Notes under the pieces: generated by a model
What the model was told of the DNA's origin: nothing
Databases searched by the model: none
Seen by the model: only the letters and a program-made list of their open reading frames with translations
Made by a program: the position numbers and the translations under genes
In this document: positions 25,743-57,976 of the stretch, piece by piece
How the letters are laid out: every line of letters starts with the position of its first letter
Position numbering within the stretch: position 1 is the stretch's first letter
From: Jiangella asiatica
GTDB taxonomy: Bacteria > Actinomycetota > Actinomycetes > Jiangellales > Jiangellaceae
Length of the DNA stretch: 64,000 bases
Assembly (NCBI RefSeq): GCF_004349065.1
Contig: NZ_SMKZ01000019.1
Coordinates: forward strand, 1 to 64,000
Reading direction: 5' to 3'

Positions 25743-25814
25743 GGGCGATTAGCTCAGCGGGAGAGCGCTTCGTTCACACCGAAGAGGTCACTGGTTCGAT
25801 CCCAGTATCGCCCA
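25743..25814 (+). tRNA. tRNA-Val (CAC), integration target
   Basis: Acceptor arms GGGCGAT / ATCGCCC, anticodon stem CTTCG / CGAAG with loop TTCACAC, so the anticodon is CAC. The segment from the anticodon loop through the 3' end recurs at 36938 and 45812, marking it as the attachment site of two tandem islands. The intact copy stays at the left edge. Confidence 0.97.
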
Positions 25815-25823
25815 CCCAGGTCA
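25772..25823 (+). other. Attachment site 1 (left end of island A)
   Basis: 52 bases from the anticodon loop of tRNA-Val through 9 bases past its end. Differs from site 2 by one base (position 5) and from site 3 by one base (C/T in the T arm). Similarity to site 2 also continues to the right for hundreds of bases, through the integrase remnants. Confidence 0.88.
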
Positions 25824-25890
25824 GCCTCTGTTTCCACCCTCAACAGCGAAGATCAAATCGTCGTCTGTGGGCATCCTGTGTGCGGAATCC

Positions 25891-26530
25891 TTAACGATCT
25901 TCGGCGTACTGGCTCACCTCCCGCCCGTGGGCTGCGGACGTTTCGCTGTCAACGGGCTCCTCGAGTGGGCCGGCATCCGCATGACATCCAGGCGACTGGA
26001 CGGGTCGCCGGCGTTCTCGCGACGCTCGCGCAGCAGGTCGTCGAGGATCGCGACCGGCGAGCGGGTATTTGTCGCAAGGCGGGGCCTCCAACGCGTCGAT
26101 CCAGCGTTCGGTGATCAGCGTCTTGTGGCAGTGCCGCAGGCTGTGGGGTGTCGGGCCCGGTGCCATACGGTAGGGATCCAGCGCGCCTCGCGCGATCGGC
26201 GTTGCCACGGCCGCGAAGGGCCTGGCCCGGCCACGGTGCCGCATCGACCGACACCGGACGCTTCGGGAGTCGCCGGCCACGTAAGGGGAACCACCCGGTT
26301 GCGGCGGGGTCGAATATCCAGTCACTGAACGACGAACGCCGCGGGTGGGCACTTCGCTGACCCGAGAACACGTGGCGCAGTCCGTGACACTGGCATGGCG
26401 CCGGTTTGACCTCGGTCAGATGACGTTTGATCATTTGTGATAACCAGTCTGGGATGTCGACGTCGCGGTAGGAGTCGTCCTTCGGCGGCAGGCGGAGATG
26501 CGAGCCGCCGTCGTCCTCCCGGCCTTGCAC
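25891..26530 (-). pseudogene. Broken tyrosine integrase of island A
   Basis: Read on the minus strand, fragments in several frames match the integrase of island B: DDSYRDVDIPDWLSQMIKRH, CHGLRHVFSGQ and PHSLRHCHKTLI (H-x-x-R box). Directly after HKTLI the sequence jumps to TERWIDALE, so about 40 codons holding the second histidine motif and the catalytic tyrosine are deleted. The 5' half is also missing beyond about 26530. Not functional. Confidence 0.75.
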
Positions 26531-27088
26531 TCTGTGCGTCGCTCGCGCCACAAACCATCGAGGCCGCTAGACCGTGCGTCACGCCTGCGTCCGATCCCTC
26601 GGGCTGACACAGAGCGGGTGTTGCCCGCTGGCCGTGCAGCCACGAGGCAGGCGCAATTGAGTGCGCCATGTCCGTCCCGGAGTCGCGGCCCGGCCGTCGT
26701 CATTCGACGCGGATCCTCAGCGGCGGGCGACAGGCAACCCACGCGGGCCCTAGTCGATCAGCACAGGTGTCCTTCTGGCAGTTCGTCGCCGAGGCCAGGA
26801 GTCTGAACTGATGCGACGTGCAGTATCCGTGCGGCGCTGGGTGCCGCTGATGACTCAGGAGGCTGTCCGAGGAGGGATCTGCCCACCTGAAGTCCCCCTT
26901 CGCAGGCACGAAACGTGCGCCAACGCATGTGCTGATCCGATGGTCCCGCCAGGCGGTCTCGGTCTCGTCAGGGCCGCACACTTTGGGCGTCGGGTGATTG
27001 CTCATCGTGGAGGATCCGTTGTCGGGCCCGTTGCTGGGTGCGATGGCCCGCCATTCATGCGCCGTTTGGTAGACAAGACGCCGCCGGC
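26531..27088. other. Non-coding or unrecognised stretch in island A
   Basis: Open frames here have no recognisable family or consistent codon pattern. It probably is decayed island DNA between the integrase remnant and the sulfatase. Confidence 0.4.
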
Positions 27089-28444
27089 TCACTGGTCGAG
27101 GAGAAACCGACGCGCGTGACGATAGGCAGGAGACGGAGGTGGGCCGGCCAGCAGCGGGTCGTTCGTCTCCTGCATCCAGCCGAGCAAAATGAGCCGGAGT
27201 TCGTCCACCAATCCACGATGGCGAGGCTCTTCGGCGAGGTTGGTCAGCTCGAGGGGATCATCTCGCAGGTCGTACACCTCGACCGGCGCGTGGTCGTTTG
27301 CCGGGCCTGCCGCGGACACCACGGGTGTGGCCCATGGCCGCCACGACTGTGCGACCGTGCCCATGAAGGCCGGTGTCGAGTCGAACTTCACGATCAGCTT
27401 GTGGGTCGCGGTCCGGACGCATCGTCTCGGGTCGTAGTAGTTGTGGAAGGTGAGCTCGCCGAAGAGGTGGTCGCGGCCTTCGCGCGGATCGCCCGCGAGG
27501 CGTCGCACCAGGCTGCGGCCCTGCACCTGCGCAGGGATCGGCGCGCCGACGGCGTCGAGAACGGTAGGCACGATGTCGACATTGCTGACGAGTTCGGTCG
27601 AGATCCGGCCGCCGGACCAGCCCAGCCGCGGCGCGCGCAGGATGAGAGCGGTTTCGATGCCGGGGTCGTAGAGGGTGCACTTCGCGCGGGGAAGCGCCAG
27701 GCCGTGATCGGTGGTGAACACGACGAGGGTGTCGTCGGCCAGCCGAAGTTCGTCAATCGCGGTGAGAACGCGACCGACCGCCGCGTCCACGTGCCGCACG
27801 GCTCCCTGCAGCTCCGCGATCTCACGACGGGTGCTGTCGTCGTCGCGGAGGTATCCGGGGATCGTGATGCCGAGCGTGTCGTCAGGGCGTATGTGGCCGC
27901 CGAGAAAGCCGTGACGGGTTCCCTCGTCGGTGGCCGGCCCGAGCCGGTGTGGCTCGGTGAAGCCTATCTGGAGGTAGAACGGTCGATCTGGGTCGCCGGC
28001 CCTGGCGCTGAGTGCCTCGACGGCTCGTCGCGCGACGTCATCAGCTCGTCCGCCGGTCTGTACCTTCGTGAAGCCCAGCTGTGCGGCGACTTCGTCGTCC
28101 GGACGCCGGCGGGACTCATGGTGGACGCCGATGAGTTCGGTCCAGTAGCCCTCGTCGGCCAGAAGCCCGGCGACGTGCTGGACATCCGGGCTCAGGTCCC
28201 AGCCGTAGTTGGCGTGGGTCAGCCCTAATACGCCGGTGTTGTGCGGGTACCGCCCGGTGAAGAGTGCGGCTCTTGACGGGCTGCACTGCGGTGCGCTGCA
28301 GAAGGCGTTGTCGAACCGGATGCCGTCGGCCGCCAGGGCATCCAAGGACGGTGTTCGTACCGTGGTCGCGCCATAGCAGTGGGCGAACCGGCCGAGGTCG
28401 TGGCAATGGATGAGTGCGACGTTCATGCGCCGCGTCGCGCTCAT
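27089..28444 (-). CDS. Sulfatase (Cys-type, heparan N-sulfatase-like)
   Basis: 451 residues from ATG 28444, overlapping the stop of the AraR-like regulator as ATGA. No signal peptide. The metal-binding start is MNVALIHCHDLGRFAHCYG, and the maturation motif is C-S-P-S-R in FCSAPQCSPSRAALFTGRYP. TTDHGLALPRAKCTLYDPGI carries the second metal site and active-site lysine, and the arrangement (DLGR start, LYDPGIETALILR) resembles N-sulfoglucosamine sulfohydrolases. It removes sulfate from a sugar, perhaps an N- or O-sulfated hexosamine (inference). Its operon partner is the regulator. Confidence 0.85.
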   Translation of the reverse strand: MSATRRMNVALIHCHDLGRFAHCYGATTVRTPSLDALAADGIRFDNAFCSAPQCSPSRAALFTGRYPHNTGVLGLTHANYGWDLSPDVQHVAGLLADEGYWTELIGVHHESRRRPDDEVAAQLGFTKVQTGGRADDVARRAVEALSARAGDPDRPFYLQIGFTEPHRLGPATDEGTRHGFLGGHIRPDDTLGITIPGYLRDDDSTRREIAELQGAVRHVDAAVGRVLTAIDELRLADDTLVVFTTDHGLALPRAKCTLYDPGIETALILRAPRLGWSGGRISTELVSNVDIVPTVLDAVGAPIPAQVQGRSLVRRLAGDPREGRDHLFGELTFHNYYDPRRCVRTATHKLIVKFDSTPAFMGTVAQSWRPWATPVVSAAGPANDHAPVEVYDLRDDPLELTNLAEEPRHRGLVDELRLILLGWMQETNDPLLAGPPPSPAYRHARRFLLDQ

Positions 28445-29526
28445 CCGAGTAGGGCCTTCGCGGGGACCGGTGCGCACGACTCTCGCACCAGCAGCCGGGG
28501 CTGGATGTGTATCTGCTGGATGGGCGCATCGGGACCTTGCTGTATCTGGCGGAGCAGGCTGTCCGCGGCCAGGCGGCCGATCTCGGCCGCCGGTCTGGAG
28601 ATCGTCGTCAGGGGGACCTCGGCGAGTTCGGCGACGTCGTCGTTGTACGCGATGACGGAGAGCCGGTCCGGCACGGAGAGCCCGGCTTGGCGGGCGAGCG
28701 GGAGCAAGCGGGTCGCATCTCGGTCGCTCAGACTGAAGACGGCGGTCACGCCTTCGGCAATGCACGTCTGCGCGTAGGCGGCGAGCTGGTCGGTGGGCCA
28801 TGAGTCTTCGCGTTGGATGGCCGAGGCGACGCGGGGCAGGGAGAAGTGGGTGATGGCTCGTTCGAAGCCCGTCACGACCGTGTCCGCTGTCGAGCTGTGC
28901 AGCTGCCCGAGGTAGCCGAGGCGTTCGTGGCCCAGCTCAACCAAGTGGCGGACGGCGAGGTGGACACCGCCGACATGGTTGGTGCAGACGTAACGAGTGG
29001 GATCGTCGGGCGGCGGATTAGGAAGTCGCCGCTCGACGAGAACGTACGGCACGGGAAGTGCTCGAAGCTGGTTGACGTAGTCGTTGGGCTGGTCGACCCG
29101 GTGCAGGTTGGGCACCAGCAGGAGGCCGTCGACACCCATGTCGAGGAGCTCGCGCATTCGTGCGGCCTCCTGGCCGAGATTGTACTCGGAGCTGGCCAGG
29201 ACCACTCGCACTCCCGCGGTGGCGGCGACGGACTCGATGCCCTCGATCACGCCGGCGTAGATGTGTCCAGTGGTGGGGACCACGACACCGACGAATCGAG
29301 GCCGTCGTGCTCCGTTCGGGGGAACGGCGCGAACGAACGTACCGGAGCCCTGTCGGCGCTCGACGAGCCCTTCCTTGACAAGGACATCGAGCGCTCGACG
29401 GACTGTATTAAGACTGACCTGATGGGTCCGTAACAACTCTTGCTCTGTGGGCAGGCGGCTGCCCACCGGCCAGCGGCCCGCGAGAATATCCTGTCTGACC
29501 TGGTCGGCAACCAACTGGAACTTCAT
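28441..29526 (-). CDS. AraR-like regulator: GntR winged helix fused to a LacI-type sugar-sensing domain
   Basis: 361 residues from ATG 29526 (29544 is an alternative). Residues 1-75 are a GntR helix-turn-helix (QVRQDILAGRWPVGSRLPTE, SLNTVRRALDVLVKEGLVER), followed by a periplasmic-binding-type domain of the LacI class (VGVVVPTTGHIYAGVIEGIE, VCTNHVGGVHLAVRHLVELG). This fusion is the AraR architecture, which senses a sugar. It overlaps the sulfatase gene and is divergent from the four-gene operon starting at 29608, whose promoter contains a palindrome between -35 and -10. Confidence 0.88.
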   Translation of the reverse strand: MKFQLVADQVRQDILAGRWPVGSRLPTEQELLRTHQVSLNTVRRALDVLVKEGLVERRQGSGTFVRAVPPNGARRPRFVGVVVPTTGHIYAGVIEGIESVAATAGVRVVLASSEYNLGQEAARMRELLDMGVDGLLLVPNLHRVDQPNDYVNQLRALPVPYVLVERRLPNPPPDDPTRYVCTNHVGGVHLAVRHLVELGHERLGYLGQLHSSTADTVVTGFERAITHFSLPRVASAIQREDSWPTDQLAAYAQTCIAEGVTAVFSLSDRDATRLLPLARQAGLSVPDRLSVIAYNDDVAELAEVPLTTISRPAAEIGRLAADSLLRQIQQGPDAPIQQIHIQPRLLVRESCAPVPAKALLG

Positions 29527-29572
29527 ACTGAGATCGTAGCGCATCTCCAGGGAATGGTAGGAATAGATTCCA

Positions 29573-29601
29573 TTGACAGGCATGAATTCATGCGCCAAGA
29601 T
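29573..29601 (+). promoter_or_regulatory. Promoter with -35 TTGACA, operator palindrome in the spacer and -10 CAAGAT
   Basis: TTGACA (29573-29578), spacer of 17 bases, CAAGAT (29596-29601), then 6 bases to ATG 29608, so the mRNA would be leaderless. A perfect 14-bp palindrome GCATGAATTCATGC (29580-29593) fills the spacer, an ideal place for repression by the divergent AraR-like protein. Confidence 0.6.
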
Positions 29602-29607
29602 TCCGGT

Positions 29608-31602
29608 ATGTCTAATGACCTCACCCGTCGGCGATTCCTCCAGGGCAATGCGGCCGTCCTCGCGGCGGGCGCCGTGCTGGGCGCGAAGCTCCCAGGTGCT
29701 CATGGCGCGGAGTCCACCGCGACCTCAGCCTGGGAACCGGTGCCTCCGGTGGATCTCGGGGAGCTGTCCCCTGGCGACTTCCTCGACGAGGAACTCGATC
29801 TCCCGTACTACCTCGCGCACTTCCACACGGTGGCGAACTCCGTCGTCGAGTCGGGGCCAAACCGCGGCTTCATCGACATCGCGGTGTGGCGCAACCCGGA
29901 ACAGCAGGACCCAGCGAATGCGCGGGTGATGGAGAACGTGCTGTCCTTCGCATACTTCTATACGAAGGACCGACCGTGGAACGCCTACCGCGGCTCCGAG
30001 CCGGTACGAGCGAGGCTCGAGGCCGCGCTGCGGTTCCTGATGAGCCTCCAGGACGATCAGGGCCTCTATCCGTGGCCGGGTAAGAGCTGGAGCACGGGGT
30101 ACGGTACGGCCGCGTTCATCACCAAGTTCCTCGGCGAGACCCTTGTGCTGCTCAACGGCACACCGTCGATCGACAGTGAGTTGTTCGACGACGTGATGGC
30201 GGCGCAGCGCAGGAGCCTGCACTACCTACTCACCGAGCAGGAGTGGTATCACTTCGCGGTGCAGTTCCCGAACCAGTGGACCTGCATCTGGGCCGGTGCG
30301 GCCGCCTACCTGCACCTGCGTGACGACGATGAGATCGAGGAGCTGTTCGTCAAGCGTCTCGACGACAGCCCGGATCACTTCCAGACCGCGAGCGGCGCCT
30401 ACCCAGAAGAGCATTACGTGGACTGGAACTACACGTTCGGGACGCACCGAAGCAACGAGCGGATGACCCGGCACTACCTCCTCCAGCGAGCGCGTGGCCG
30501 ACGACAACTCGGTGTGCTGCGAACGATGCTGGAGCGGTGGCTGGACCTGTTGAGCTACAACGTACTCGTCGAGCCCGAGGGTCGCGGGTTCATCCTCAAC
30601 AGCGCCGTCGAGACCCGGTCGACGCGGCGATACGTCGACCACGTCGCGCATCCCGAGGCGCAGGAGATCCCGCTGGCCCGGGCGTTCGCCCCGAGCAGCC
30701 GTGAGCTCGCGGAGCAGCGGGCGCGGACGCGCGCGGGCCTGGACCAGGCCTGGCCGGAGGTCGGGCCACTCCGCGTAGGCGAACAGTTCGGATTCAGCCC
30801 GTACACGTTCATGCACCGGGACCACGACCGCTGGTACCCGACCGATCAGCAGCGGCAGCAGGCGATCCAGCTCCTGCCATACGTCGCACGGCAGTCCTTC
30901 ATTCATCAACGAGTGGACTCCAAGCTCGCGATACACATGACCTATGTCCGGCGTCCGACCTACTACGCCGCCTTCAACTCCGGTCGACGGACGCACGCTC
31001 AGCAGCGGCTCGGCCTCGGTGTGCTGTGGCATCCGGTGCTGGGGACCGTGATGCAGACGCAGTCGGACTGGCAGAGCTCCGGCACATGGGGAACGCGTGC
31101 CGGCGGGGCGAGCCGCGAGGAAGCGGGCACGAGCACGCCACGGTTTTTCGTTGACGGCAATCCGGTAGCGCCGTGGGCGCACACCAATCGTGACCTGCCG
31201 ACCGGCGACTTGCTGATCACGTATTCGCTCGGCAGCGGCAACACGAAGTCCGTGGAGTTCCACGACGACGAGATCCTGGTCACCACGTCCTATGCCGGCG
31301 AGTTCACCGAGGACTTTCCGATCGTGTTCTACCCGGACGTCGACGACGTCGTGCGCGAGCCCGGCCTGTTTGTGCTGCGTCGAGATGGCGTCGAGCTCAG
31401 GGTGGAGGCGCCCGGAGCCGGGCGTCCCAGCTTCCCGATCTCATCGACGACGATCCACACCGGCCCGCCGCACGCGTTCATCTTCGAGCAGGTGGACTTG
31501 CGCGAGGCCGATCCGCTAGCGGGCGCGAAGCGGCTGGGCACCATGCGGTTCTCCGCCGTCGACGAACTCTCCTATCGCATTTCGATCGCTGCCGCGTCGT
31601 GA
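29608..31602 (+). CDS. Tat-exported protein of unknown family, probable glycan-active enzyme
   Basis: 664 residues from ATG 29608. The twin-arginine signal is LTRRRFLQGNAAVLAAGAVL. The mature protein has an alpha-helical middle part with repeated aromatic patterns (LSFAYFYTKDRPWNAYRG, GLYPWPGKSWSTGYGTAAF, YHFAVQFPNQWTCIWAGA) and a beta-rich C-terminal third (YYAAFNSGRRTHAQQRLGLG, ISYRI). This layout resembles toroid-plus-beta-sandwich polysaccharide lyases or related enzymes, but no family match can be claimed. It is first in an operon with DUF2264, SGNH and binding-protein genes, all on the exported glycan theme. GTGA overlap with the next gene. Confidence 0.6.
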   Translation: MSNDLTRRRFLQGNAAVLAAGAVLGAKLPGAHGAESTATSAWEPVPPVDLGELSPGDFLDEELDLPYYLAHFHTVANSVVESGPNRGFIDIAVWRNPEQQDPANARVMENVLSFAYFYTKDRPWNAYRGSEPVRARLEAALRFLMSLQDDQGLYPWPGKSWSTGYGTAAFITKFLGETLVLLNGTPSIDSELFDDVMAAQRRSLHYLLTEQEWYHFAVQFPNQWTCIWAGAAAYLHLRDDDEIEELFVKRLDDSPDHFQTASGAYPEEHYVDWNYTFGTHRSNERMTRHYLLQRARGRRQLGVLRTMLERWLDLLSYNVLVEPEGRGFILNSAVETRSTRRYVDHVAHPEAQEIPLARAFAPSSRELAEQRARTRAGLDQAWPEVGPLRVGEQFGFSPYTFMHRDHDRWYPTDQQRQQAIQLLPYVARQSFIHQRVDSKLAIHMTYVRRPTYYAAFNSGRRTHAQQRLGLGVLWHPVLGTVMQTQSDWQSSGTWGTRAGGASREEAGTSTPRFFVDGNPVAPWAHTNRDLPTGDLLITYSLGSGNTKSVEFHDDEILVTTSYAGEFTEDFPIVFYPDVDDVVREPGLFVLRRDGVELRVEAPGAGRPSFPISSTTIHTGPPHAFIFEQVDLREADPLAGAKRLGTMRFSAVDELSYRISIAAAS

Positions 31603-33428
31603 CCAACCCGCTGACCGGCAATGACCTGGGGTCGCGCGGCGACGCGCAGCGAGCGGTCACCGCCCTGTGCGAGCCGGTCCTGGCGAGGTTCGTCCCCGGC
31701 TCTGGTCGCGCGCGGCTGGGCGGCGCGGGCGCCCAGTACGCGCCCGGGGTGGCCGAGCTGGAGGGATTCGCGCGACCGCTGTGGGGGCTCGCGCCGCTGG
31801 CCGCCGGTGGCGGAAACGTCGACTGGCAGCCCTACTTGCACGGGCTGTCGTCGGGCACGGATCCGAATCACCCGGAGTACTGGGGTCCGGCCGGCGACAA
31901 CGACCAGCGGCTGGTGGAGATGGCGGCGATCGCGGTGGCGATCGCGCTGGTCCCCGACCGGGTGTGGGAGCCCTTGACCACCTGCGACCAGCAGAATCTG
32001 AGCCGGTGGCTGGCTCGCATCAACGACGTGGCCGTCAACGACAACAACTGGCTGTTCTTCAAAGTGATCGTCAACGAGGCGCTGCGCCTGGTGGACACGC
32101 CCGGGTTCGACGCCGAGGGCCAAACACAGGCACTGAACCGGCTGGAGAGGTTCTACCTCGGCGATGGGTGGTATGCCGACGGACCCACCGCGCGGCGCGA
32201 CTACTACGTCCCTTGGGCCATGCATTTCTATGGGCTGTTGTACGCGCGCCTGGCAGCCGATCACGATCCGCGACGGTGCGATCGTTTTCGAGAACGGGCG
32301 GCGACATTCGCCGGTGATTTCCTGCGGTGGTTCGCCCGTGATGGCTCGGCGCTGCCGTTCGGGCGCAGCCTGACCTATCGGTTTGCCCAGGGTGCGTTCT
32401 GGGGCGCGCTGGCATTTGCCGGGGTCGAAGCCTTGCCGTGGGGTCAGATCAAGGGCCTCCTCCTGCGCCAGCTGCGCTGGTGGGCGCGGCAGCCGATGTT
32501 CGACGAGGCGGGTCTGCTCTCTATTGGCTACGCATACCCGAACCTCACGATCGCGGAGCAGTACAACGCTCCGGGCTCTCCCTACTGGTCGCTGAAAGCG
32601 TTCCTGCCCCTCGCCCTGACTGCGGATCACCCGTTCTGGCTGGCCGCGGAGTCGGACTCGCCGGCAGTGGCCGGGACATCGAAACAGCCGCATGCGGGCA
32701 TGCTCGTCTCGATGGATGAGCCTTCGGGACACGTGACGGCTCTGGTCAGCGGCCAGCAGCATGTGGCGGTACGGCACGGCGCGGCCAAGTACGCCAAGTT
32801 CGCATATTCGACAGCATTCGGATTCAGCGTGCCCGCGGGTGACCGTGGGCTGGATCAGGTCGCTCCCGACAGCATGCTGGCGCTCTCCGAGGACGAGACC
32901 CATTGGCGCGTTCGCGCGGAACTCGAGGACGCCCGGTTGGACGGCGATGTGCTCTGGTCGCGCTGGCGGCCGTGGCACGACGTCGAGATCGAGACCTGGC
33001 TGTGGTTTCACGGGTTGTGGCACGCCCGGGTGCATCGAATCGCCAGCGGTCGACGCATCGTCAGCGCCGAGGGCGGGTTCGCGGTCGATCTCCAGGCCGC
33101 TGAGCTGTCAGGAGCTCATGCGCGGGTGGAACGTGGCCAGGCATTCTGCGCCGGGTCGACCATGGTCAGCGGCCTGCGCGATGTCCGCGACGTTGCGTGT
33201 GGTGACCTCCGTGCCGGTGAGGTGCTTCGAGTGTTTCCTAATACCAACGTGCTCCGTCCGCGCACCAGCCTGCCAGTCCTTCGAGGAGCCCACGACGTCG
33301 GTGAGCATTGGCTCTGCACCGCAGTCTTCGCAGGTGTCGGCGACGACGGATGGGCCGACGCCTGGAACAACGCGCCCTCGTTCGAGCAGATGACGGAGGT
33401 CCTCCATGCGGACCATCTCGCCCGCTGA
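31599..33428 (+). CDS. DUF2264 family protein
   Basis: 609 residues from GTG 31599, overlapping the previous stop. The C-terminal half carries the family phrases LLSIGYAYPNLTIAEQYNAP and GSPYWSLKAFLPLALTADHP. The N-terminal half is helical (DNDQRLVEMAAIAVAIALVP, NWLFFKVIVNEALRL). No signal peptide, so probably cytoplasmic. DUF2264 proteins often occur in carbohydrate loci; their reaction is not settled to my knowledge. The following gene starts 23 bases inside it. Confidence 0.85.
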   Translation: MTNPLTGNDLGSRGDAQRAVTALCEPVLARFVPGSGRARLGGAGAQYAPGVAELEGFARPLWGLAPLAAGGGNVDWQPYLHGLSSGTDPNHPEYWGPAGDNDQRLVEMAAIAVAIALVPDRVWEPLTTCDQQNLSRWLARINDVAVNDNNWLFFKVIVNEALRLVDTPGFDAEGQTQALNRLERFYLGDGWYADGPTARRDYYVPWAMHFYGLLYARLAADHDPRRCDRFRERAATFAGDFLRWFARDGSALPFGRSLTYRFAQGAFWGALAFAGVEALPWGQIKGLLLRQLRWWARQPMFDEAGLLSIGYAYPNLTIAEQYNAPGSPYWSLKAFLPLALTADHPFWLAAESDSPAVAGTSKQPHAGMLVSMDEPSGHVTALVSGQQHVAVRHGAAKYAKFAYSTAFGFSVPAGDRGLDQVAPDSMLALSEDETHWRVRAELEDARLDGDVLWSRWRPWHDVEIETWLWFHGLWHARVHRIASGRRIVSAEGGFAVDLQAAELSGAHARVERGQAFCAGSTMVSGLRDVRDVACGDLRAGEVLRVFPNTNVLRPRTSLPVLRGAHDVGEHWLCTAVFAGVGDDGWADAWNNAPSFEQMTEVLHADHLAR

Positions 33429-34452: not shown

Positions 34453-34572
34453 GAACGCCGGGAGGCAACCCCGGCCCTGACGGTAGGGACAGCAGGACGA
34501 CAACGCCACCGAGGAGATCGTCGAGCCCTCGCCCCGGCACTGGGTCCGCGAACCACCAAAGGAGAACCGGCC

Positions 34573-36318: not shown

Positions 36319-36430
36319 CCCCGAATGGGCTGCCGGGCAACGCGGGCGTTGTCTGGTGGCTCTTCGTAGGTGGAGACCGGCGACGGGCGAGGTAGCGTCG
36401 TCGTGGCGACCTGACGATACGGTGCCCGGT

Positions 36431-36760: not shown

Positions 36761-36937
36761 CGACGGTTTCGTTGCGTGGGCAGGGTCCTTTTCCCGCACC
36801 GCTGATCCTGGCCCAGGGGCGAGACCGAGCGGCTGTTGGTCGAGCGGCTGGCCGAACCCGGCGGCGGCGTTGAGTGGCAACGGGACCTGAGCTGCGCTGA
36901 TGCGAATCCACTGAGGTCGCGGCGGTGTGGGTTCGTC

Positions 36938-36989
36938 GTTCGCACCGAAGAGGTCACTGGTTCGATCCCAGTATCGCCCACCCAGGTCA
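36938..36989 (+). other. Attachment site 2 (junction of islands A and B)
   Basis: 52 bases matching the 3' part of tRNA-Val(CAC) with one difference in the anticodon-loop end. Right of it, similarity to the region after site 1 continues (for example GAAGATCAAATCGTCGTCTG in both), because both islands start with related integrases. Confidence 0.88.
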
Positions 36990-37080
36990 GAGGCTGTTTC
37001 CGCCTCCACGAGCGAAGATCAAATCGTCGTCTGTGGGCATTCTGTGTGCGGAATCCTTGACGATCTTCGGCGAGCTGGGC

Positions 37081-38522: not shown

Positions 38523-38625
38523 CTGCCGCTTGCATGGCGCGACAGGTGATGGACTGGACTTGACCCGGTGGTGGGGGAGACGGCCGCAGAAAGCGTCGCC
38601 GGACATGACTGCCGCTGCGTCGATT

Positions 38626-38946
38626 CTAGATCGGATCGCGTGGCCGAGGGCGACGGGACCTCAGGGCTCGAGCCGGGTTGTGCTGGTCGGTCGTCCTCGT
38701 GAACCGCGACGTCGAGACCGCCTGTTCGGGAACCGGCAGATGCTCGTTGTTCTCGATGATTTGGATCAAGTGATCGACCGTGAACCGGTAAGCACCGGCT
38801 ACGAGCGTGAACGGGATGCGACGCAACCGTGCTTGCTCCTTGAGCCACGAGGCCTTGCACCGGAGCAGGTCCGCCGCTTCGTCGGGTGTGTACAGCTGTA
38901 CGGCCGTGCGGTCGACACTGCGACGCGGGAAACCCAGGGACGTCAC
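38626..38946 (-). CDS. Excisionase-like helix-turn-helix protein
   Basis: 106 residues from GTG 38946, with GAGGG 7 bases upstream. The core, YTPDEAADLLRCKASWLKEQ followed by ARLRRIPFTLVAGAYRFTVD and HLIQIIENNEH, is a MerR-like winged helix as in actinobacterial Xis proteins. It binds att DNA to direct excision. It lies directly upstream of the integrase on the same strand, the usual order. It looks intact although the integrase is not. Confidence 0.8.
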   Translation of the reverse strand: MTSLGFPRRSVDRTAVQLYTPDEAADLLRCKASWLKEQARLRRIPFTLVAGAYRFTVDHLIQIIENNEHLPVPEQAVSTSRFTRTTDQHNPARALRSRRPRPRDPI

Positions 38947-39034
38947 GGCAGCCCTCAAGGTCGCTCGGTGGCGCCCTCGTGACGGGTAGTAGCGCGCTGC
39001 GATGCCTGCAGGCGTGGAGGGCTGCCGCCGGGCG

Positions 39035-39364
39035 CTGGACTACGTAAGAGGTCCGGGCTGCGTCGTGGCCGATCCGCCGTGCGATGAAGACGTCACCCAA
39101 GGGCTGGTCGCGGATCTCGCCTTCGGCTATGAACCGATCGCCACGTCTGAATGCCGCGTGGGCGCGGACAGCAGCTCGGCCGATGATCACGACATGGTGA
39201 AACATTGTCTGCGGACGGGCCACTGATCCGTCCTCCATGCGGCGATAGTGCTCCTGGCCGATGCGCGCGTAAAACCGGGAATCTCCCCGCTCGGTGGCGG
39301 ATAACTGGGGACTTGACGCGATGAATTCCGAAAGGGACTGCGGATCTCCATGCCCGTCGCTCAC
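39035..39364 (-). pseudogene. OB-fold single-stranded DNA-binding-like gene, probably truncated
   Basis: From GTG 39364 about 110 codons look coding: GDSRFYARIGQEHYRRMEDG, MFHHVVIIGRAAVRAHAAF, RRGDRFIAEGEIRD, FIARRIGHDAARTSYVV. The pattern of a beta-strand, a loop, then the phrase RRGDRFIAEGEI resembles SSB proteins found in conjugative elements. The frame runs on without sense across the excisionase, so the C-terminus appears lost. The SSB match is by eye. Confidence 0.45.
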
Positions 39365-39499
39365 CTCGTCCTGGCCTCGGACGTCTCGACGGAGGTCAGG
39401 TGTGCGTGGAGCTCCGGCTGATCGAAGGGGCAACTACAGACCGAGAAGACTTGCATGGCGGACGCGAGTGGCTTCGCGGGTGCGGTCCGCCGCCTCGCC

Positions 39500-39690
39500 A
39501 GCCGGATCGGTACGCGGCATGGGCTAGCCAGGTCCGCACCGTCGCGGCATACCGGGACTGCTACCAAATCGACGGCCGCGACGCCGTTACCCCGGTCCCC
39601 GCCACCGACCTCGAACGCCTGGACCACCAGCGCGCCGCCACCGCTATTCGGAACGCACGCGCGATCAGCTCCCGAACCCAGCCGGCCGCA
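39500..39690 (+). pseudogene. Relaxase (MobF/TrwC-like) C-terminal fragment
   Basis: One short stretch, YAAWASQVRTVAAYRDCYQI with LERLDHQRAATAIRNARAIS, resembles the tail of MobF-type relaxases of actinobacterial conjugative elements. The rest of the gene is absent. Supports a conjugative origin of island B. Confidence 0.4.
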
Positions 39691-39883
39691 TCGCCAGCGC
39701 ACCACGGGCGTCCCCTCCACTCGATCGATGACCATGGCCGGCGTCATCGGGGGATTCGCACGACGACTTATCCACATCAGATGAATCAACCCGCAGTTAT
39801 CCACAGATGGCGGATCTCGGCATGACACAGCGGCTCGCGCGGGTCAGGCCCGAAGGACCAAGCACTGAGTGGAGGGAGACGCC

Positions 39884-40024
39884 GTGCTGCAGATCATCGT
39901 CCTAGCGAGCTTTGCGCTGGCCGCCGCGATCCACCGCGCCTCGGCAACGAACCGCCTGCTCCGCTGGGTCCGCCAGCCAGAGAACCTGAAGTGGGGTGCC
40001 CGCTCATGCTTCTCGGCGGCCTAA
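39884..40024 (+). CDS. Possible 46-residue membrane peptide with strong ribosome-binding site
   Basis: The GTG at 39884 follows GGAGGGAG at good spacing. The peptide begins LQIIVLASFALAAAIHRA, one hydrophobic helix, then a basic tail (NRLLRWVRQPENLKWGARS). It overlaps the start of the BBE fragment in another frame. It may be the truncated start of a conjugative-element membrane protein; no family is recognised. Confidence 0.35.
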   Translation: MLQIIVLASFALAAAIHRASATNRLLRWVRQPENLKWGARSCFSAA

Positions 40025-40308
40025 ACCTGGGCCTGGCGGTCGTGATCAACGCCGGCATCGACATCACCGCGGGATGGCTCCCGGACGACCCGGAGCCGGA
40101 GCGCCACATCGGCTGGGTGCGTGACTTCTTCACGGCACTCGAGCCCCATAGCGTCGGCGTCTACGTGAACTTCACCAGCGACGACACATCGAGCCGAGTG
40201 CGTACCGGCGCCTACAGCAGCGAGCAATGGGATCGCCTCGTGGCCATCAAGACGAGATACGACCCGGCGAACGTCTTCCGTCACAACGCCAACATCCCGC
40301 CGACCTGA
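40000..40308 (+). pseudogene. FAD-linked oxidoreductase, C-terminal BBE fragment
   Basis: About 90 codons, RHIGWVRDFFTALEPHSVGV followed by YVNFTSDD and LVAIKTRYDPANVFRHNANI, are the berberine-bridge-enzyme tail of FAD oxidoreductases. The FAD-binding domain is missing. A hairpin terminator (40305-40321) still follows. Confidence 0.75.
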
Positions 40309-40321
40309 CCCCACGGGTCAG
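40305..40321. terminator. Hairpin CTGACCC-CAC-GGGTCAG
   Basis: Perfect 7-base arms with a 3-base loop at the end of the BBE fragment. Confidence 0.6.
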
Positions 40322-40417
40322 CCGAAAGCGTTTGACCACGTGCGACACGGCAACGGCTCGTGCCGGACGTGCACCATGTGCATCGGGTAGCCGTGCCGCT
40401 GTGGCACCGTTGGTGAT

Positions 40418-41947
40418 GTGTTCCGCTTGTTGGGCCTCCTCGGCGGTCTGTCGGTCGCGACCGACCTGGGTACGCGAGCGCCCCTCGAGGAGTCGCTGAA
40501 ACGAGCTTTCGTCGCGACACGCCTCGCGCGGGCGCTCGGCTGCGACGACGCGGTCGTCAGAGACGTCCTCTACACCGCCCTGCTGCAGCATCTGGGTTGC
40601 ACGGCGCACTCGCACGAGAATGCAGGAGCCTGGGGCGACGACATCACCGCGACGCGCTTGGCGTTTCTCACCGACTTCTCGCAGCCGATGGATGTCTGGC
40701 GAACGTGGGTCTCGGGGCTGGCGGAGACGACCGAGGCCTCCCGGGCGCGAGTCCTGAGCAAGACTGTGATCGCCGGGAGGAGGATGAACACGGATGGGCC
40801 AACAGCGACCTGCGAGGTAGCCCGCGACGCGTCCCGGCAGCTCGGACTGCCCGCCTCGGTGCAGGACGGCCTCTTTCACGCCCTGGCGATGTGGAACGGC
40901 AAAGGCATGCCTGCGGTCGCCGGGCAGGCGATCCCGCTGTGCGCCCGCGTCATGCAGGTCGCGTCGGTCGCGGTCATGTTCGCGCTCCATGCCGGTGACG
41001 ACGTGGCGGTCGCTCAGGTACGCCGCCGCGCGGGCACGTACGTGGATCCCGAGCTTGCCGAGGCCTTCTTGAGCCAGTCGCGGGAGTTCCTCGGCGGGCT
41101 GGAGGACATCGATGCCTACCAGTGCGTGCTGGACGCGGAGCCGGACCCGGTCCGGCTCGTCGACGACGTGGAGCTCGAGGCGGTGGCCCGGACCTTCGGA
41201 AACCTCGTCGACTTGAAGAGTCCCTGGCTGCACGGGCACTCCACCGGCGTGGCCGATCTGGCTGCCGCTGCGGCCCTCGGCATGGGACTGGACGAGCAGG
41301 TTCAGACCGTGCGGATCGCCGGGTACTTGCACGACCTCGGCCGGGTGGGGGTTTCGAGCCGCATCTGGGACAAGCCCCGGCTGAATCAGACCGAGCTCGA
41401 CCAGGCACGTCTCCACCCGTATCACAGCGAGCGGATCCTTTCGCGGATACCTCATCTGAGCGAGGTCACGAGGTTGGCCGGACAGCACCACGAGCGCTGC
41501 GACGGCAGTGGCTACCACCGGGGACTCGGCGCGGCGCAATTGACCATGCCGTCTCGAGTGCTCGCGGCGGCCGATGCCTACCGCCGCCTCGTCGAGGGAC
41601 GCCCGCACCGACCGCCCTTGTCAGAGGTCCGGGCGGCCGAGCGGTTGCAGGAAGACGCCAGGGCTGGTCGCCTGGACGGCGAGGCCGTGGCAGGAGTGTT
41701 ACGAGCAACGGGGTTCTCGCGCGGAGTGCGTCGGTCGCTGCCCAGCGGGCTCACGCCTCGGCAGGTGGAGGTGCTTCGCCTGGTGTCAATTGGGCTGTCC
41801 AACCGCGACATCGCCCGTCGCCTCACGATCTCACCGCGCACGGCGGAGCACCACGTGCAGGACATCTACACGAAGATCGGAGCCGCTTCACGTGCAGGGG
41901 CCGCGCTGTTCGCCATGGAGCACGGACTCATCGACAAATTTGGGTAG
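40418..41947 (+). CDS. HD-GYP domain protein fused to a LuxR-type DNA-binding domain
   Basis: 509 residues from GTG 40418. Residues about 240-400 form an HD-GYP metal-dependent phosphohydrolase: HGHSTGVADLA, AGYLHDLGRVGV (HD), HPYHSERIL, QHHERCDGSGYHRG. The C-terminal 65 residues are a LuxR helix-turn-helix (LTPRQVEVLRLVSIGLSNRD, IARRLTISPRTAEHHVQDIY). The N-terminal half shows a second, degenerate HD-like repeat. HD-GYP proteins cleave cyclic di-nucleotides; fused to LuxR it could couple that to gene control (inference). A dyad and an MFS gene follow. Confidence 0.85.
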   Translation: MFRLLGLLGGLSVATDLGTRAPLEESLKRAFVATRLARALGCDDAVVRDVLYTALLQHLGCTAHSHENAGAWGDDITATRLAFLTDFSQPMDVWRTWVSGLAETTEASRARVLSKTVIAGRRMNTDGPTATCEVARDASRQLGLPASVQDGLFHALAMWNGKGMPAVAGQAIPLCARVMQVASVAVMFALHAGDDVAVAQVRRRAGTYVDPELAEAFLSQSREFLGGLEDIDAYQCVLDAEPDPVRLVDDVELEAVARTFGNLVDLKSPWLHGHSTGVADLAAAAALGMGLDEQVQTVRIAGYLHDLGRVGVSSRIWDKPRLNQTELDQARLHPYHSERILSRIPHLSEVTRLAGQHHERCDGSGYHRGLGAAQLTMPSRVLAAADAYRRLVEGRPHRPPLSEVRAAERLQEDARAGRLDGEAVAGVLRATGFSRGVRRSLPSGLTPRQVEVLRLVSIGLSNRDIARRLTISPRTAEHHVQDIYTKIGAASRAGAALFAMEHGLIDKFG

Positions 41948-41956
41948 GTCTACCCA
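41941..41956. promoter_or_regulatory. Dyad TGGGTAG-GT-CTACCCA between HD-GYP/LuxR and MFS genes
   Basis: Perfect 7-base arms with a 2-base centre, overlapping the stop codon of the regulator and 36 bases before the MFS start. The size fits a LuxR-type operator; a weak hairpin is the alternative. Confidence 0.45.
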
Positions 41957-41991
41957 TCCTCCGGACGGCGTCGCGCCGCAGGCTGGGCCTC

Positions 41992-43197
41992 ATGGCCACA
42001 CCACGGACGTCGACCGCAGACGTGCCTCACGACACGCCTGACCGGCTGCTCACACCGGCCTTCGTCAGGCTGGCGCTCGGCGACCTCGCCTACTTCACCG
42101 CCGCGGGCGTCGCGATCTATGCGCTTCCGTTCTACGTCACCGGCCCGGTCGGCTCGGACAAGGCGGGCGCCGGCGTCGCGTTCGGCGCCTTCGCGGTCAC
42201 CGCGCTGGTGCTGCGTCCCTACGCCGGACGGCTCTCGGACACGGTCGGACGGAGGCCGCTTCTCGTCGGGGGTGCCCTGCTGTGTGCGCTCGCCATGCTG
42301 CTGACCGCCTTCGTCGACAGTCTCGCCGTCGTCGTCGCGCTCCGTCTGCTGTTGGGCGTCGCGGAGGCCGCATTCTTCGTCGCGTCGTTCGCCGCACTGG
42401 CCGACCTCGCGCCGGCCAGTCGCCTGGGTGAGGCACTCAGCTACAACTCGCTCGGGCTCTATCTCGGCCTTGCTCTCGGTCCGCCCCTCGGCGAGGTCTT
42501 GGTCACGACCCTGAGCTTCACCGCGGCCTGGCTGGCGGCAGGCGCCCTCGCGGTGCTGGCGGCCGCCGTGGTGTACGGGATCGGCGAGACAGGGACGCCA
42601 CGGCGGAGAACCGACGGAGCGAGACCACCTCTGATCCACCGGGAGGCGCTTCCACCCGCCGTGGGGTTCTTCACCTCCGTGGTCGCGATGGGCGGCTTCC
42701 TGGCCTTCGCCTCGCTGCACGCCGACGCGGTCGGGCTGGGAAGCACGAGCGTCCCGCTGTTCGTCTACGGCATCGTCGTGGTGACCTGTCGCATCGCCTT
42801 CGCCAAGGTGCCAGACCGGCTGTCTCCACTGCCTCTCGGCGCGGCGGCATTGGTCGCGATCGCCGTTGGTCTCGCCCTGACGGCGACGTGGACTACCCCG
42901 GTGGGCATGACTATCGGGACGGCCGTGACGGCCCTGGGCGTCTCGTTCAGCACGCCCGCCTTCTTCTCCGCGGTCTTCGCCACGGTCTCATCCTCGGAGC
43001 GAGGCGCCGCCTCGGGAACCGTCAGCGCCTTCCTGGACCTCGGACTCGGTGGCGGCCCCATCCTGCTGGGCCTGGTGGCCGACAGCGCCGGGATCCCGTG
43101 GATGTTCGGCGTTGCTGCCGCAGTGGCCCTGGCCGGGAGCGCTTGGACCATCAGCCTGGCGTTCCGAACCAGCCGCATCCCCGCCACGGCTGACTGA
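41992..43197 (+). CDS. Major facilitator superfamily transporter
   Basis: 401 residues from ATG 41992, about 12 membrane segments. The MFS loop 2-3 motif is GRLSDTVGRRPLLVGG; further segments include LRLLLGVAEAAFFVASFAAL and LALGPPLGEVLV. The membership suggests drug or metabolite efflux; substrate unknown. Follows the HD-GYP/LuxR gene by 44 bases, so it may be its target. Confidence 0.88.
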   Translation: MATPRTSTADVPHDTPDRLLTPAFVRLALGDLAYFTAAGVAIYALPFYVTGPVGSDKAGAGVAFGAFAVTALVLRPYAGRLSDTVGRRPLLVGGALLCALAMLLTAFVDSLAVVVALRLLLGVAEAAFFVASFAALADLAPASRLGEALSYNSLGLYLGLALGPPLGEVLVTTLSFTAAWLAAGALAVLAAAVVYGIGETGTPRRRTDGARPPLIHREALPPAVGFFTSVVAMGGFLAFASLHADAVGLGSTSVPLFVYGIVVVTCRIAFAKVPDRLSPLPLGAAALVAIAVGLALTATWTTPVGMTIGTAVTALGVSFSTPAFFSAVFATVSSSERGAASGTVSAFLDLGLGGGPILLGLVADSAGIPWMFGVAAAVALAGSAWTISLAFRTSRIPATAD

Positions 43198-43269
43198 CTC
43201 CCCGCCGTTGTTCAAGCAGTCCCGGGTTGATACAGACCCCGGGAATGTCGTTCCGGCGGTGTACGTCGT

Positions 43270-43891
43270 TTGGATCTGCTGTATCTCGACGGCCGGTCGC
43301 TGCTGGGCATGTCGTACGAGCAGCGACGGGCCGAGCTCGGGCAGCTCCTGCCGGAGGCTGGGGGAGCGGGCTGGCAAGTCCCCGCCTATGTGCGCGGCCA
43401 GGGCCAGGCGATGGTCGCCGCGACGAAAGCCCAGCGCTTGGAAGGCGTCATCGCGAAGAGGTTCGGCAGCCGGTACGACGCCGGCCGTCGCAACCGAGAC
43501 TGGCTGAAGATCAAGAACGTCAATAGGCAAGAGGTTGTCATCGGCGGCTGGTTCCCCGGCGAAGGCGGCCTGTCTGGCTCTCTCGGGGCTCTCGCCGTCG
43601 GCTGCTACGACCGTGATGGTGAGCTGCGCTACGCCGGAAGGGTCGGCACCGGATTCACAGTCGCCGAACGGCGTCGACTAGGGCAACTCCTCGCGCCGCT
43701 CGCCACCGGGACGCCCCTTCGTCGGCGCGCAACCGGACAAGCCCAGCTGCCGCTTCGTCACGCCGCAGCTGGTCTGCGACGTCGCCTTCGCCGAGTGGAC
43801 CCAGGTCGGTGCTCTCCGCCACCCCGCCTACAAGGGCCTCCGGACCGACAAGCCAGCGCGCGCCGTCATCCGCCAACACGTGACCAGCTGA
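43270..43891 (+). pseudogene. ATP-dependent DNA ligase (LigD ligase domain), broken
   Basis: The reading starts inside the domain (DLLYLDGRSLLGMSYEQRRA), with LEGVIAKRFGSRYDAGRRNRD and WLKIKNVNRQEVVIGGWFPG, the LigD nucleotidyltransferase and OB parts. The catalytic KxDG segment is missing upstream. At about 43715 the frame shifts to PFVGAQPDKPSCRFVTPQLV then YKGLRTDKPARAVIRQHV. 5'-truncated with one frameshift. Confidence 0.82.
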
Positions 43892-43907
43892 GGGCAGGTT
43901 CGGGGTC

Positions 43908-44345
43908 GTGTGTGGACGATACGTCGTCGACGTGTCCATCGATGACCTGGTCGACGAGTTCGACGCCGTCGCCGGCGACGTGCTTGATCTGCGGCCGTCG
44001 TTCAACGTCGCGCCCACCGACCGCATCCCGATCGTGCTGGAACGTACCGACCAGCCAGCCCACAGGAGACGACAGATCCACGCGGCCCGCTGGGGACTCA
44101 TCCCGTCCTGGTCCTAAGACATCACCGGCGGCGCGAAGATGATCAACGCTCGGCTAGAAACCGCGCACGCCAAACCGCCTACCGTGGCCCGCTCGCCCGT
44201 CGCCGCTGCATCATCCCAGCCAGCGGCTATTACGAATGGCAACGCCGCCCTGACGGCGGCCCGCAGCCCTTCATCCACCCACCCAGGGGCAACCTCCTGA
44301 TCGCCGGGATCTTCGAGTGGCGGCGCAACTTGAGATCGACGCCGA
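43908..44345 (+). pseudogene. SOS-response-associated peptidase (SRAP/HMCES family), broken
   Basis: Begins MCGRYVVDVSIDDLVDEFD with the catalytic Cys2. After AARWGLIPSWS comes an in-frame TAA (44115-44117), where the family has Lys. The same frame then continues DITGGAKMINARLETAHAKP, and a frame change gives RRCIIPASGYYEWQRRPDGG and LLIAGIFEW. Intact members form a crosslink with abasic DNA sites. Dead here by a nonsense codon and a frameshift. Confidence 0.82.
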
Positions 44346-44639
44346 CGACCGTCGCCGAAGCTAGCTGACAGGTCGTCCCAGAGGTAGTGCAGGGTCGCGT
44401 CGAAGAGGCCGGCAGTTGCGGCAGCGATCATTTCGAGACCTAGACCGATCGAGCCAGGACGCTCGACTCGAGTCTGTCGAGAACCGGGGGAGCGCTGACA
44501 GGAAAGTCCGGCGCTAGCCAACTTGGACGACGAGCCCGATTCTCCGACGCTGCCCCCTCTTGACTCGGGTGCTCGAGAGATGGAGCGTGGTTAGAGGCAG
44601 CGCCACGGGGACGCTGCGGCGAACAGATGGGAGCGCGTC

Positions 44640-45263
44640 ATGTTCGTGCGTACCACTGAAGTGCAAGCCGATCCCGCCAAGATTGACGACGGCATCGCCA
44701 TTGTTCGTGACGATATCTTTCCCGCAGTGTCCGGGATAGACGGATGTGCCGGGATGTCGCTGCTCGTGAACCGCGGCTCCGGTCGTTGCATCGCCACAAC
44801 CGCGTGGCACTCCGAGGATGCGATGCGGCAGAGCGCCGAGTCGGTGGTGCCGCTGCGGAACCGTGCGGAGCGGAGCCTGGGCGCCACCGGCAGCGAGGTG
44901 CACCAGTGGGAGGTGGCAGTGGTGCACCGCGACCATGCCACACCCGAAGGCGCCTGCGCACGCCTCACTTGGCTCAGCGGCGATCCCGAGACGGCCGATC
45001 GCGCGATCGACACATACAAGCTGGCAGTCCTCCCGCGCCTTCAGGAGATGGCCGGCTTCTGCAGTTCCAGCCTGATGATCGATCGCGATGCCGGCCGCGT
45101 GGTCGGGACCGCCGCCTTCGACAGCCGGGAGGCCCTGGAGGCCAGCCGCGACGCGGCCCAGGGCATTCGCCAGCGGGTCGCCGACGAACTGGGCGCGACA
45201 ATCGACAACATCGAGGAGATGGAGATTGTGTTCGCGCACCTCCATGTTCCGGAGATGGCCTAA
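44640..45263 (+). CDS. Duplicated dimeric alpha-beta barrel (ABM-like) domain protein
   Basis: 207 residues; ATG 44640 follows GGGAG. Two copies of a ferredoxin-like dimeric barrel are visible: MFVRTTEVQADPAKIDDGIA with DGCAGMSLLVNRGSGRCIAT, then CARLTWLSGDPETADRAIDT with MAGFCSSSLMIDRDAGRVVG. Proteins of this kind are common in actinobacteria; they may act on quinones or reactive species. No specific reaction can be assigned. Region 44346-44639 before it has no supported gene. Confidence 0.7.
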   Translation: MFVRTTEVQADPAKIDDGIAIVRDDIFPAVSGIDGCAGMSLLVNRGSGRCIATTAWHSEDAMRQSAESVVPLRNRAERSLGATGSEVHQWEVAVVHRDHATPEGACARLTWLSGDPETADRAIDTYKLAVLPRLQEMAGFCSSSLMIDRDAGRVVGTAAFDSREALEASRDAAQGIRQRVADELGATIDNIEEMEIVFAHLHVPEMA

Positions 45264-45296
45264 CACAGGAGCGCCGCAGCTCCAGTACCCGAGCTC

Positions 45297-45490
45297 ACAC
45301 CCGAGCCAGTAGATCCACGAGTGGCGCGGCGGGCGAGATGTCCGCGTTTCCACGAGATGGGAGATTTACCCAGCTGGCCAGCGCGGTGAAGAACGGCGTG
45401 CCGCCGCCCACCAGGACCAACTGAGGGGACTCGAACCGGGCGAGCCGTTCGCCACGGGCTGCCCGTGTTTGTCCACGCAGAGCGCGCACC
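45297..45490 (-). pseudogene. Dihydrofolate reductase/RibD C-terminal-like fragment
   Basis: On the minus strand, SPQLVLVGGGTPFFTALASW with VNLPSR resembles the end of RibD-type reductases (VGGGTPFF box). No upstream enzyme remains. A short remnant at the right end of island B; 45491-45759 shows no gene. Confidence 0.5.
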
Positions 45491-45759
45491 GGGTGGTGTC
45501 AGCGACCGTGACCGCGGTTTAGGTGGCGGGTGCACGCCGTGCAGGGCGGACGGTCGAGGACAAGAGATCCCACCTGAGATCAGCGCCTGTCGGACTCAGG
45601 CGAGGTCTCAGAACCAGCAGGAACACGAGGCGGGCTGAGACATCGGTCTCTGACTGGTCGACGGGAGACAGCCTGCGGGGAGCACAGGTCGGGAGCAGGC
45701 TGGGAGCTATTCCACGTCTGAATGGCTCGGAATGGTTGTCAACGGTCCCGAACGGGCCT

Positions 45760-45796
45760 GTCCTACCTGCGGAAATGTTGTTTCCGCAGGTAGGAC
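45760..45796. repeat. Perfect 16-bp hairpin beside attachment site 3
   Basis: GTCCTACCTGCGGAAA and its complement at 45781-45796 with a 5-base loop (TGTTG), ending 15 bases before site 3. It could terminate transcription into the island or mark a recombination arm. Confidence 0.65.
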
Positions 45797-45811
45797 ACTT
45801 GGTCGGCCATG

Positions 45812-45863
45812 GTTCACACCGAAGAGGTCACTGGTTCGATTCCAGTATCGCCCACCCAGGTCA
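45812..45863 (+). other. Attachment site 3 (right end of island B)
   Basis: 52 bases matching site 1 with a single C-to-T difference. The sequence to its right does not match the integrase region, as expected of an outer right end. The following 250 bases to the LacI gene show no supported gene. Confidence 0.88.
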
Positions 45864-57975: not shown

Positions 57976-57976
57976 G

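Follow-up and report, generated by a model that had tools for sequence, protein, structure and literature searches.

Probable tandem accretion of decayed elements resembling integrative and conjugative elements at a tRNA-Val(CAC) gene in Jiangella

We analyzed positions 1-64,000 of contig C36 (121,761 nt) of Jiangella asiatica, hereafter the window, where remnants of related integrases, islands of cargo genes, and two additional copies of the 3' part of a tRNA-Val(CAC) gene lie behind that gene. The genome measures 7.03 Mb and is assembled in 134 contigs. It was compared with 11 relatives (G001-G011), which together with the window's own genome (G000) form a genus set of 12 Jiangella genomes, and with three comparison genomes from Jiangellaceae (G013, G016, and G018), G016 being from another genus. 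The tRNA-Val(CAC) locus is common to all 11 relatives. Its surroundings were compared over 8-20 kb in each relative (40 kb in two stretches in G002) using matches of at least 250 nt, and a long-range comparison of eight of the 12 genus genomes covered 40-140 kb with matches of at least 900 nt only.

The tRNA-Val(CAC) gene and its repeat copies

The window contains a single complete tRNA-Val(CAC), found by ARAGORN on the plus strand. ARAGORN and Rfam agree on the four tRNAs of the window, and ARAGORN reported no tRNA within 36800-46000. The gene and the three repeat sites are as follows.

25743-25816 (+), tRNA-Val(CAC), the putative integration target, whose last 45 nt (25772-25816) are repeated (ARAGORN, Rfam, repeat search)
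25772-25823 (+), site 1 (attL-like), 45 nt of the tRNA plus 7 nt of the element A arm (repeat search, alignment of relatives)
36938-36989 (+), site 2, repeat copy plus the start of the element B arm (repeat search)
45812-45863 (+), site 3, repeat copy plus the start of a third element arm (repeat search)

The repeat search recovered the three 52-base copies that the first-pass annotation had placed at 25772, 36938, and 45812. Compared by eye, sites 1 and 2 differ at one position, sites 1 and 3 at one, and sites 2 and 3 at two. Even with up to 16 mismatches of 43 allowed, the search of the 121,761-nt contig gave no match apart from the three copies and tRNA-Val(GAC), a paralogue at 22380. We rejected the possibility that the copies are ordinary tRNA duplicates, also present in strains that lack the cargo, since each copy holds just the 3' part of the tRNA and leads into an element arm, and since no such arrangement was seen among the 11 genus relatives examined. 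Five of the 12 genomes (G000, G001, G002, G005, and G011) have more than one CAC-type copy. At the window locus, several direct repeats of the tRNA 3' end bound elements beside one intact tRNA, the arrangement by which tandem accretion is recognized.

The 52-nt block is composite: 45 nt belong to the tRNA and begin in its anticodon loop, running to the 3' end, and the last 7 nt are CAGGTCA. In the alignment, CCAGGTCAG stands behind the tRNA in nine of the 11 relatives and is absent in G004 and G009, a count that agrees with the occurrence of a 47-nt pattern (up to 3 mismatches) in ten of the 12 genus genomes, the window's own included (backwards control, 0 of 12). In G009 the ...GCCCACC of the tRNA is followed immediately by a different sequence with a terminator-like hairpin; the CAGGTCA block therefore belongs to an element arm and not to the tRNA or the chromosome. 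The G009 flank resembles that of G016 (local score 42, against 27 for the best of 1000 mononucleotide shuffles), so the search for an empty tRNA-Val site in sister strains, suggested in the first-pass annotation, yielded one unoccupied-looking target in the genus. G009 probably represents J. muralis, since its integrase fragment lies at zero tree distance from that species.

G009 also carries a local inversion: the stretch holding tRNA-Val(CAC) and the two genes upstream of it has the opposite orientation to the genes around it (L034, L077), and on the far side the sequence corresponds to DNA that in G004 lies about 90-112 kb right of the tRNA. In G002 the other tRNA, tRNA-Val(GAC), has a partial 3' copy 9.9 kb onward (L050, 366-10369) and seems to be an integration target as well; no integrase of the tRNA-Val(CAC) family was found in that stretch. 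At 45761-45795 of the window, ending 17 nt before site 3, the arms of a perfect 15-bp inverted repeat enclose a loop of 5 nt, and the hairpin becomes longer when folded (-32 kcal/mol for 46 nt). This hairpin was considered as a possible element end; it occurs once in its own genome and in none of the 11 relatives.

Integrase remnants, element arms, and the extent of the array

Minus-strand remnants of related integrases follow copies 1 and 2 and none follows copy 3, as had been noticed from the letters; tblastn with the sister integrases gave no match right of site 3.

26107-26554 (-), element A integrase remnant, about residues 222-371 of a 483-aa sister (tblastn; profile match at 26186-26527)
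37189-38522 (-), element B integrase pseudogene, nearly full length, with frame changes and internal stops (tblastn, profile)

Both integrases are fragmented, which favors the proposed loss of mobility, and the two elements would presumably be immobile at present. In a tree built on a 330-nt fragment the A and B integrases are sisters (support 0.999, 86.4% identity), in line with the earlier view that the elements at sites 1 and 2 are related, and their fragments are 66-72% identical to the sister integrases of G001, G005, G008, and G011. Open integrase frames stand directly behind tRNA-Val(CAC) in G001 (504 aa), G005 (493 aa), and G011 (483 aa), placing integrases of the same specificity at the same tRNA in relatives. 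All three exceed the cut-off of Phage_int_SAM_3, and only the G005 frame also exceeds that of Phage_integrase (PF00589). Together with the repeat copies, these frames support site-specific integration at the 3' end of tRNA-Val, as first proposed. Remnants of the integrase are found at or near the tRNA in four of the 12 genomes (G000, G002, G006, and G010), while G004 has just a 25-27% integrase relative 14-15 kb from the tRNA. The window's own genome holds no open integrase close to the family, and a distant one lies on C53 (E 4e-17).

A wider scan, with one genome per species, located integrase relatives at 14 loci. Three of these are beside tRNA-Val(CAC), all in Jiangella, and four are less than 0.4 kb from tRNA-Pro(CGG), in J. 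muralis and three Streptomyces; one more lies 2.5 kb from tRNA-Pro(CGG) and one beside tRNA-Pro(GGG), and no tRNA was found at the other five. Given these tRNA-Val and tRNA-Pro neighbors, two close copies of the integrase may use different tRNAs; the 330-nt tree gives no resolution on the direction of a change of target, from Pro to Val or the reverse.

Homology beyond sites 1 and 2 runs at 80-91% in blocks (25770-26520 and 36936-37801), and the remainder of islands A and B has no further shared repeat of at least 30 nt. This shared arm and integrase sequence is what would be expected if the locus were one composite island whose attachment and integrase end had been duplicated by homologous recombination or segmental duplication. 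We regard that scenario as very improbable: the 14% divergence of the integrase fragments points to old separate histories (unless the duplication is itself old), the cargo of the two islands is unrelated, and the independent multi-copy arrays of G001 and G011 combine their arm types differently.

The arms were compared over 130 nt beyond the repeat, each score being set against 300 dinucleotide shuffles. One row of this comparison (G004dist) has a misplaced cut that keeps part of the repeat, and no claim depends on it; the G004 and G009 rows begin 9 nt past the tRNA, though both genomes are without the CAGGTCA block.

25824-25912 (+), element A integrase-side arm, arm type II (0 of 300 shuffles against site 2, G007, and the G001 and G011 distal arms)
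36886-36937 (+), what is left of the distal arm of element A, limited to its core-proximal part (0 of 300 against the G001, G011, and G002 distal arms)
36990-37078 (+), element B integrase-side arm, arm type II (repeat and arm comparisons)
45864-45930 (+), element C integrase-side arm, arm type I, without an integrase after it (arm comparison, tblastn)

The flanks of sites 1 and 2 match each other (score 168) as well as G007 and the distal copies of G001 and G011 (0 of 300 shuffles each), and do not match the flank of site 3 (75 and 25 of 300). Left of site 2 the distal arm is kept, its score against the distal arms of G001, G011, and G002 being reached by no shuffle; against the two G005 copies it was reached by 294 and 34 of 300. 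The site 3 flank matches six of the 11 relatives (G001, G002, G006, G008, G010, and G011; scores 32-75; 0 of 300 shuffles each) and does not match G003, G004, G005, G007, or G009 (52 to 288 of 300). This type I arm precedes the open integrase frame in G001 and G011, and both arrays mix the arm types otherwise than the window does: a type I arm stands at the tRNA, a type II arm at the distal copy.

The first-pass annotation had reconstructed two successive integrations and let the array end at 45863. At least two related tandem elements are indeed present, but copy 3 is followed by an element arm of a different type (type I), so the array does not stop there and the implied number of integrations rises to at least three. 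Since its flank is an element arm seen in relatives, copy 3 is not the chromosomal end, and the simplest reading of these alignments is that a third element, whose integrase has been lost, has its left end there.

Base composition and the position of the conserved chromosome bear on the same question. From 0.713 left of the tRNA the GC content drops to 0.668 in A and 0.672 in B, and to 0.643 over 45864-69032, so that low-GC DNA with a glycan-catabolism locus extends to about 69 kb. Behind the tRNA, the right flank conserved in the family follows after about 75 nt in G013 and 2.6 kb in G018; in the genus it lies at 80 kb in G003, 210 kb in G008, and 319 kb in G004, and, inverted, at 539 kb in G010 and 1.95 Mb in G001, distances that may include rearrangements and are not insert sizes. 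In the window's own genome this flank is on contig C44, and at least 96 kb therefore separate it from the tRNA. If there were exactly two elements, with site 3 as the chromosomal right attachment site (attR) and ordinary chromosome beyond it, one would understand why neither an integrase nor a distal copy is found right of site 3 on the contig. That scheme nevertheless appears improbable to us, because the site 3 flank is the integrase-side arm of six of the 11 relatives, with an open integrase behind it in G001 and G011, and shows no match to the G009 flank that looks unoccupied (score reached by 285 of 300 shuffles), because the GC content stays at 0.643 until 69 kb, and because the family-conserved right flank is on C44.

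Element backbone and cargo

Between the integrase pseudogene and the cargo of island B, tblastn revealed two further remnants.

38734-38904 (-), excisionase-like (xis-like) remnant, 72% over 57 aa to a sister gene with an HTH_17 match just below the Pfam cut-off (tblastn)
39020-39340 (-), single-strand-binding protein (ssb) remnant, 61% over 107 aa to the sister ssb, its own Pfam score being below cut-off (tblastn)

The element of G005 carries, in order, int, an xis-like helix-turn-helix gene (HTH_17 score 26.4 against a cut-off of 27), a gene for a 176-aa protein, SSB, and a TraG/TraD-type coupling protein, and then, up to the contig end, DUF4192 and a protein that matches AAA_10 below threshold. 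The order int-xis-ssb is common to island B, G005, and G011; in G011 it is followed by other cargo including a large NACHT-type open reading frame (ORF). That 2218-aa ORF (L042:3572-10228), behind an int-xis-ssb stub, has NACHT/AAA-type matches below the Pfam cut-offs and is possibly a defence gene.

Neither the coupling protein of G005 nor its DUF4192 and AAA-type proteins had a tblastn match on the whole of C36. A Pfam scan of 16 ORFs of island B gave no transfer-related match, no separate search with relaxase models being made, and the subset of ORFs scanned contained no Pfam match of the TraB/FtsK or Rep type that marks actinomycete integrative and conjugative elements (AICEs, pSAM2 type). 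Integrative and conjugative elements (ICEs) with a type IV secretion system (T4SS) are recognized by an integrase, a relaxase, a coupling protein, and mating-pore genes; here there are only remnants of int, an xis-like gene, and ssb. The description of island B as a decayed conjugative element thus holds for these three remnants, which are arranged as in the sister with a coupling protein, and does not extend to a coupling protein, none of which was detected. Judged from gene content, island B would be a cargo island with an ICE-like stub, for which 'conjugative' fits the ancestry at best. Elements A and B do have the structure of a cis-mobilizable element (CIME), with attL and attR in place and integration and transfer genes lost or broken; for element C the attR was not found on C36 or in C44:45001-97721.

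Distant relatives of the integrase occur in 29 phage records, as might be expected of prophage remnants. All of these records are below 60% identity and none covers 80% or more of the query, the sister gene order runs into a coupling protein, and the Pfam scans of the ORFs submitted found no phage structural domain (one sub-threshold tail-tube match fell in the ligase ORF listed below). A prophage origin in place of an ICE-like one is accordingly the least credible of the alternatives considered.

The cargo was named by Pfam domains, the substrates being inferred from them; NCBIfam matches were all below their curated cut-offs and were not used for naming. The genes below were assigned by Pfam unless stated otherwise.

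27089-28801 (-), sulfatase (PF00884), island A
28441-29703 (-), GntR-type regulator with a sugar-binding domain, island A
29608-31602 (+), 664-aa protein of no Pfam or NCBIfam family, possible twin-arginine translocation (Tat) signal, island A (ORF)
31599-33428 (+), DUF2264 protein, island A
33406-34452 (+), GDSL-type esterase/lipase domain, island A
34573-36318 (+), family 5 extracellular solute-binding protein, island A
40006-40308 (+), C-terminal fragment of a berberine-bridge-type enzyme (BBE domain), island B
40418-41947 (+), protein with an HD domain and a LuxR-type helix-turn-helix, island B
42022-43197 (+), MFS transporter, island B
43270-44142 (+), ORF with an ATP-dependent DNA ligase fragment, island B
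44640-45263 (+), ORF with an ABM domain, island B
46112-47137 (-), LacI-type regulator, with which the glycan locus right of site 3 begins
47563-48678 (-), enolase-superfamily protein resembling sugar-acid dehydratases
51430-55338 (-), glycoside hydrolase family 2 protein
55770-57649 (+), two ABC transporter permeases (55770-56741 and 56834-57649)
57665-59842 (+), second glycoside hydrolase family 2 protein
59843-61366 (+), sulfatase, right of site 3
61397-62851 (+), family 8 solute-binding protein

An arabinofuranosidase-like protein is also encoded right of site 3. Islands A and C each hold a sulfatase plus transport and hydrolase genes, and by their domains much of the cargo apparently serves the breakdown of sulfated sugars. 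The cargo of the two islands A and B is unrelated, as the first-pass annotation had stated. Partial matches to the island A cargo (29600-34400) at 67-75% occur in seven of the 12 genomes, a second locus in the window's own genome included, and none of them is beside tRNA-Val. For the cargo at 55800-62800, no match other than itself exceeds 75%. Island B cargo has matches in all 12 genomes (66-76%), mainly to the ligase segment and one neighboring segment.

Two ORFs, the 664-aa one in island A and one of 774 aa (48874-51198), have no Pfam family and no solved relative, with weak matches to a Tat signal, and are candidate secreted glycan-active proteins. Relatives of the 664-aa protein at about 30% were found in ten of 296 genomes of the class, the window's own included. 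Single-sequence structure predictions gave mean predicted local distance difference test scores of 35.7 (664 aa) and 34.3 (774 aa), too low to interpret. The lowest GC content of the window (0.57-0.58) is at 49001-51000 in the third segment, over the 774-aa ORF.

Beyond the low-GC zone, the 8.5 kb at 69033-77531 have a counterpart of 92% identity in G004, where it lies about 25-34 kb right of tRNA-Val(CAC) (L029-L030), and the tRNA neighborhoods of the two genomes are only 83% identical; this difference suggests a recent exchange of the block.

Probable tandem accretion at the tRNA-Val(CAC) locus

We conclude that the locus very probably arose by tandem accretion of decayed ICE-like, or CIME-like, elements at tRNA-Val(CAC), with at least three members. 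A tyrosine-integrase family recognizing the 3' part of this tRNA would have inserted elements repeatedly. Each insertion would join the integrase-side arm to the tRNA and leave a 45-nt copy at the far end of the element, and the tRNA would stay whole because it is the integrase-side arm that is joined to it. Later arrivals could use either the tRNA or an older copy, so that elements would stack head to tail. The three elements would be A (25817-36937), B (36983-45811), and C (from 45857, if taken as one unit), A and B with decayed sister integrases and C with its arm only. Their backbones would be ICE-like, intact sisters having int, an xis-like gene, ssb, and a T4SS coupling protein. The remainder would be CIME-like cargo islands framed by attachment-type sites and movable only by an integrase from elsewhere.

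Several observations weigh against this interpretation. Neither a relaxase nor a coupling protein nor another transfer gene was detected, and the ICE origin therefore rests on three small remnants. No fourth copy was found on C36 or in C44:45001-97721, and hence neither a far end of element C nor a chromosomal attR was found there in this assembly of 134 contigs; the searches of these sequences, which also covered the native terminator and the distal-arm motif, gave just one chance match with 11 mismatches. Left of site 3 no distal arm is recognizable, the score of the best comparison being reached by 15 of 300 shuffles, and element B thus has a decayed or rearranged right end. The GC content returns to 0.723 in 69033-77531 and is 0.706 beyond. 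Two of the three sister integrases lack a PF00589 match at 0.001, and in five of the 11 relatives (G003, G004, G007, G008, and G009), three of which still show the CAGGTCA block, no integrase of the family was found near the tRNA.

ICESt1-related elements were reportedly the subject of work by Pavlovic in 2004. For CIMEs, and for their accretion with ICEs or integrative and mobilizable elements, the relevant part of PMC5704250 describes a loss of integration and transfer genes, retained attachment sites, and stacking at one target, all of which is shared here; unlike the CIMEs described there, the window sites keep their cores but only partial distal arms, and A and B retain integrase remnants. 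Tandem accretion of AICEs and defective AICEs at tRNA-Arg was reported for a Streptomyces population, in an account whose pertinent sections mention different integrases at one site and propose cis-mobilization (PMC9513070). As in that array of one to three elements, there are direct repeats at one tRNA and the trace of an older element; in contrast to what those sections describe, the backbone here resembles a T4SS-type ICE (ssb, and a TraG-type coupling protein in the sister) and not traB/rep, the window elements are all decayed, and both host genus and tRNA are different. The Frankia AICEs Fean5518 and Fean5534 likewise form a tandem pair at a tRNA, in their case tRNA-Lys, being related to each other and having closely related integrases; according to the passages that treat them they are functional and excise alone and together (PMC3218068), whereas the window elements would not be expected to excise unaided. 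Among the papers listed by our literature search, one of which mentions Jiangella, we found no description of such an array in this genus.

Tandem accretion is a known route of bacterial genome growth, of which the array described here would be a new case. It would illustrate how a variable zone comes to be bordered by a tRNA, at one locus that can be compared across 12 genomes and that offers open integrases, fragments, bare arms, and an unoccupied-looking site as comparable states. The lack of an integrase beside the last repeat does not equal the end of an array, and the arm sequence needs to be tested as well. A bolder idea, which we hold to be possible but rather unlikely, is that in this genus tRNA-Val(CAC) has been a long-lived docking port, where stacked elements with decaying integrases left behind framed cassettes of cargo and sulfated-glycan catabolism was built up cassette by cassette, and that these cassettes may be mobilized in cis by the open integrases of sister species.

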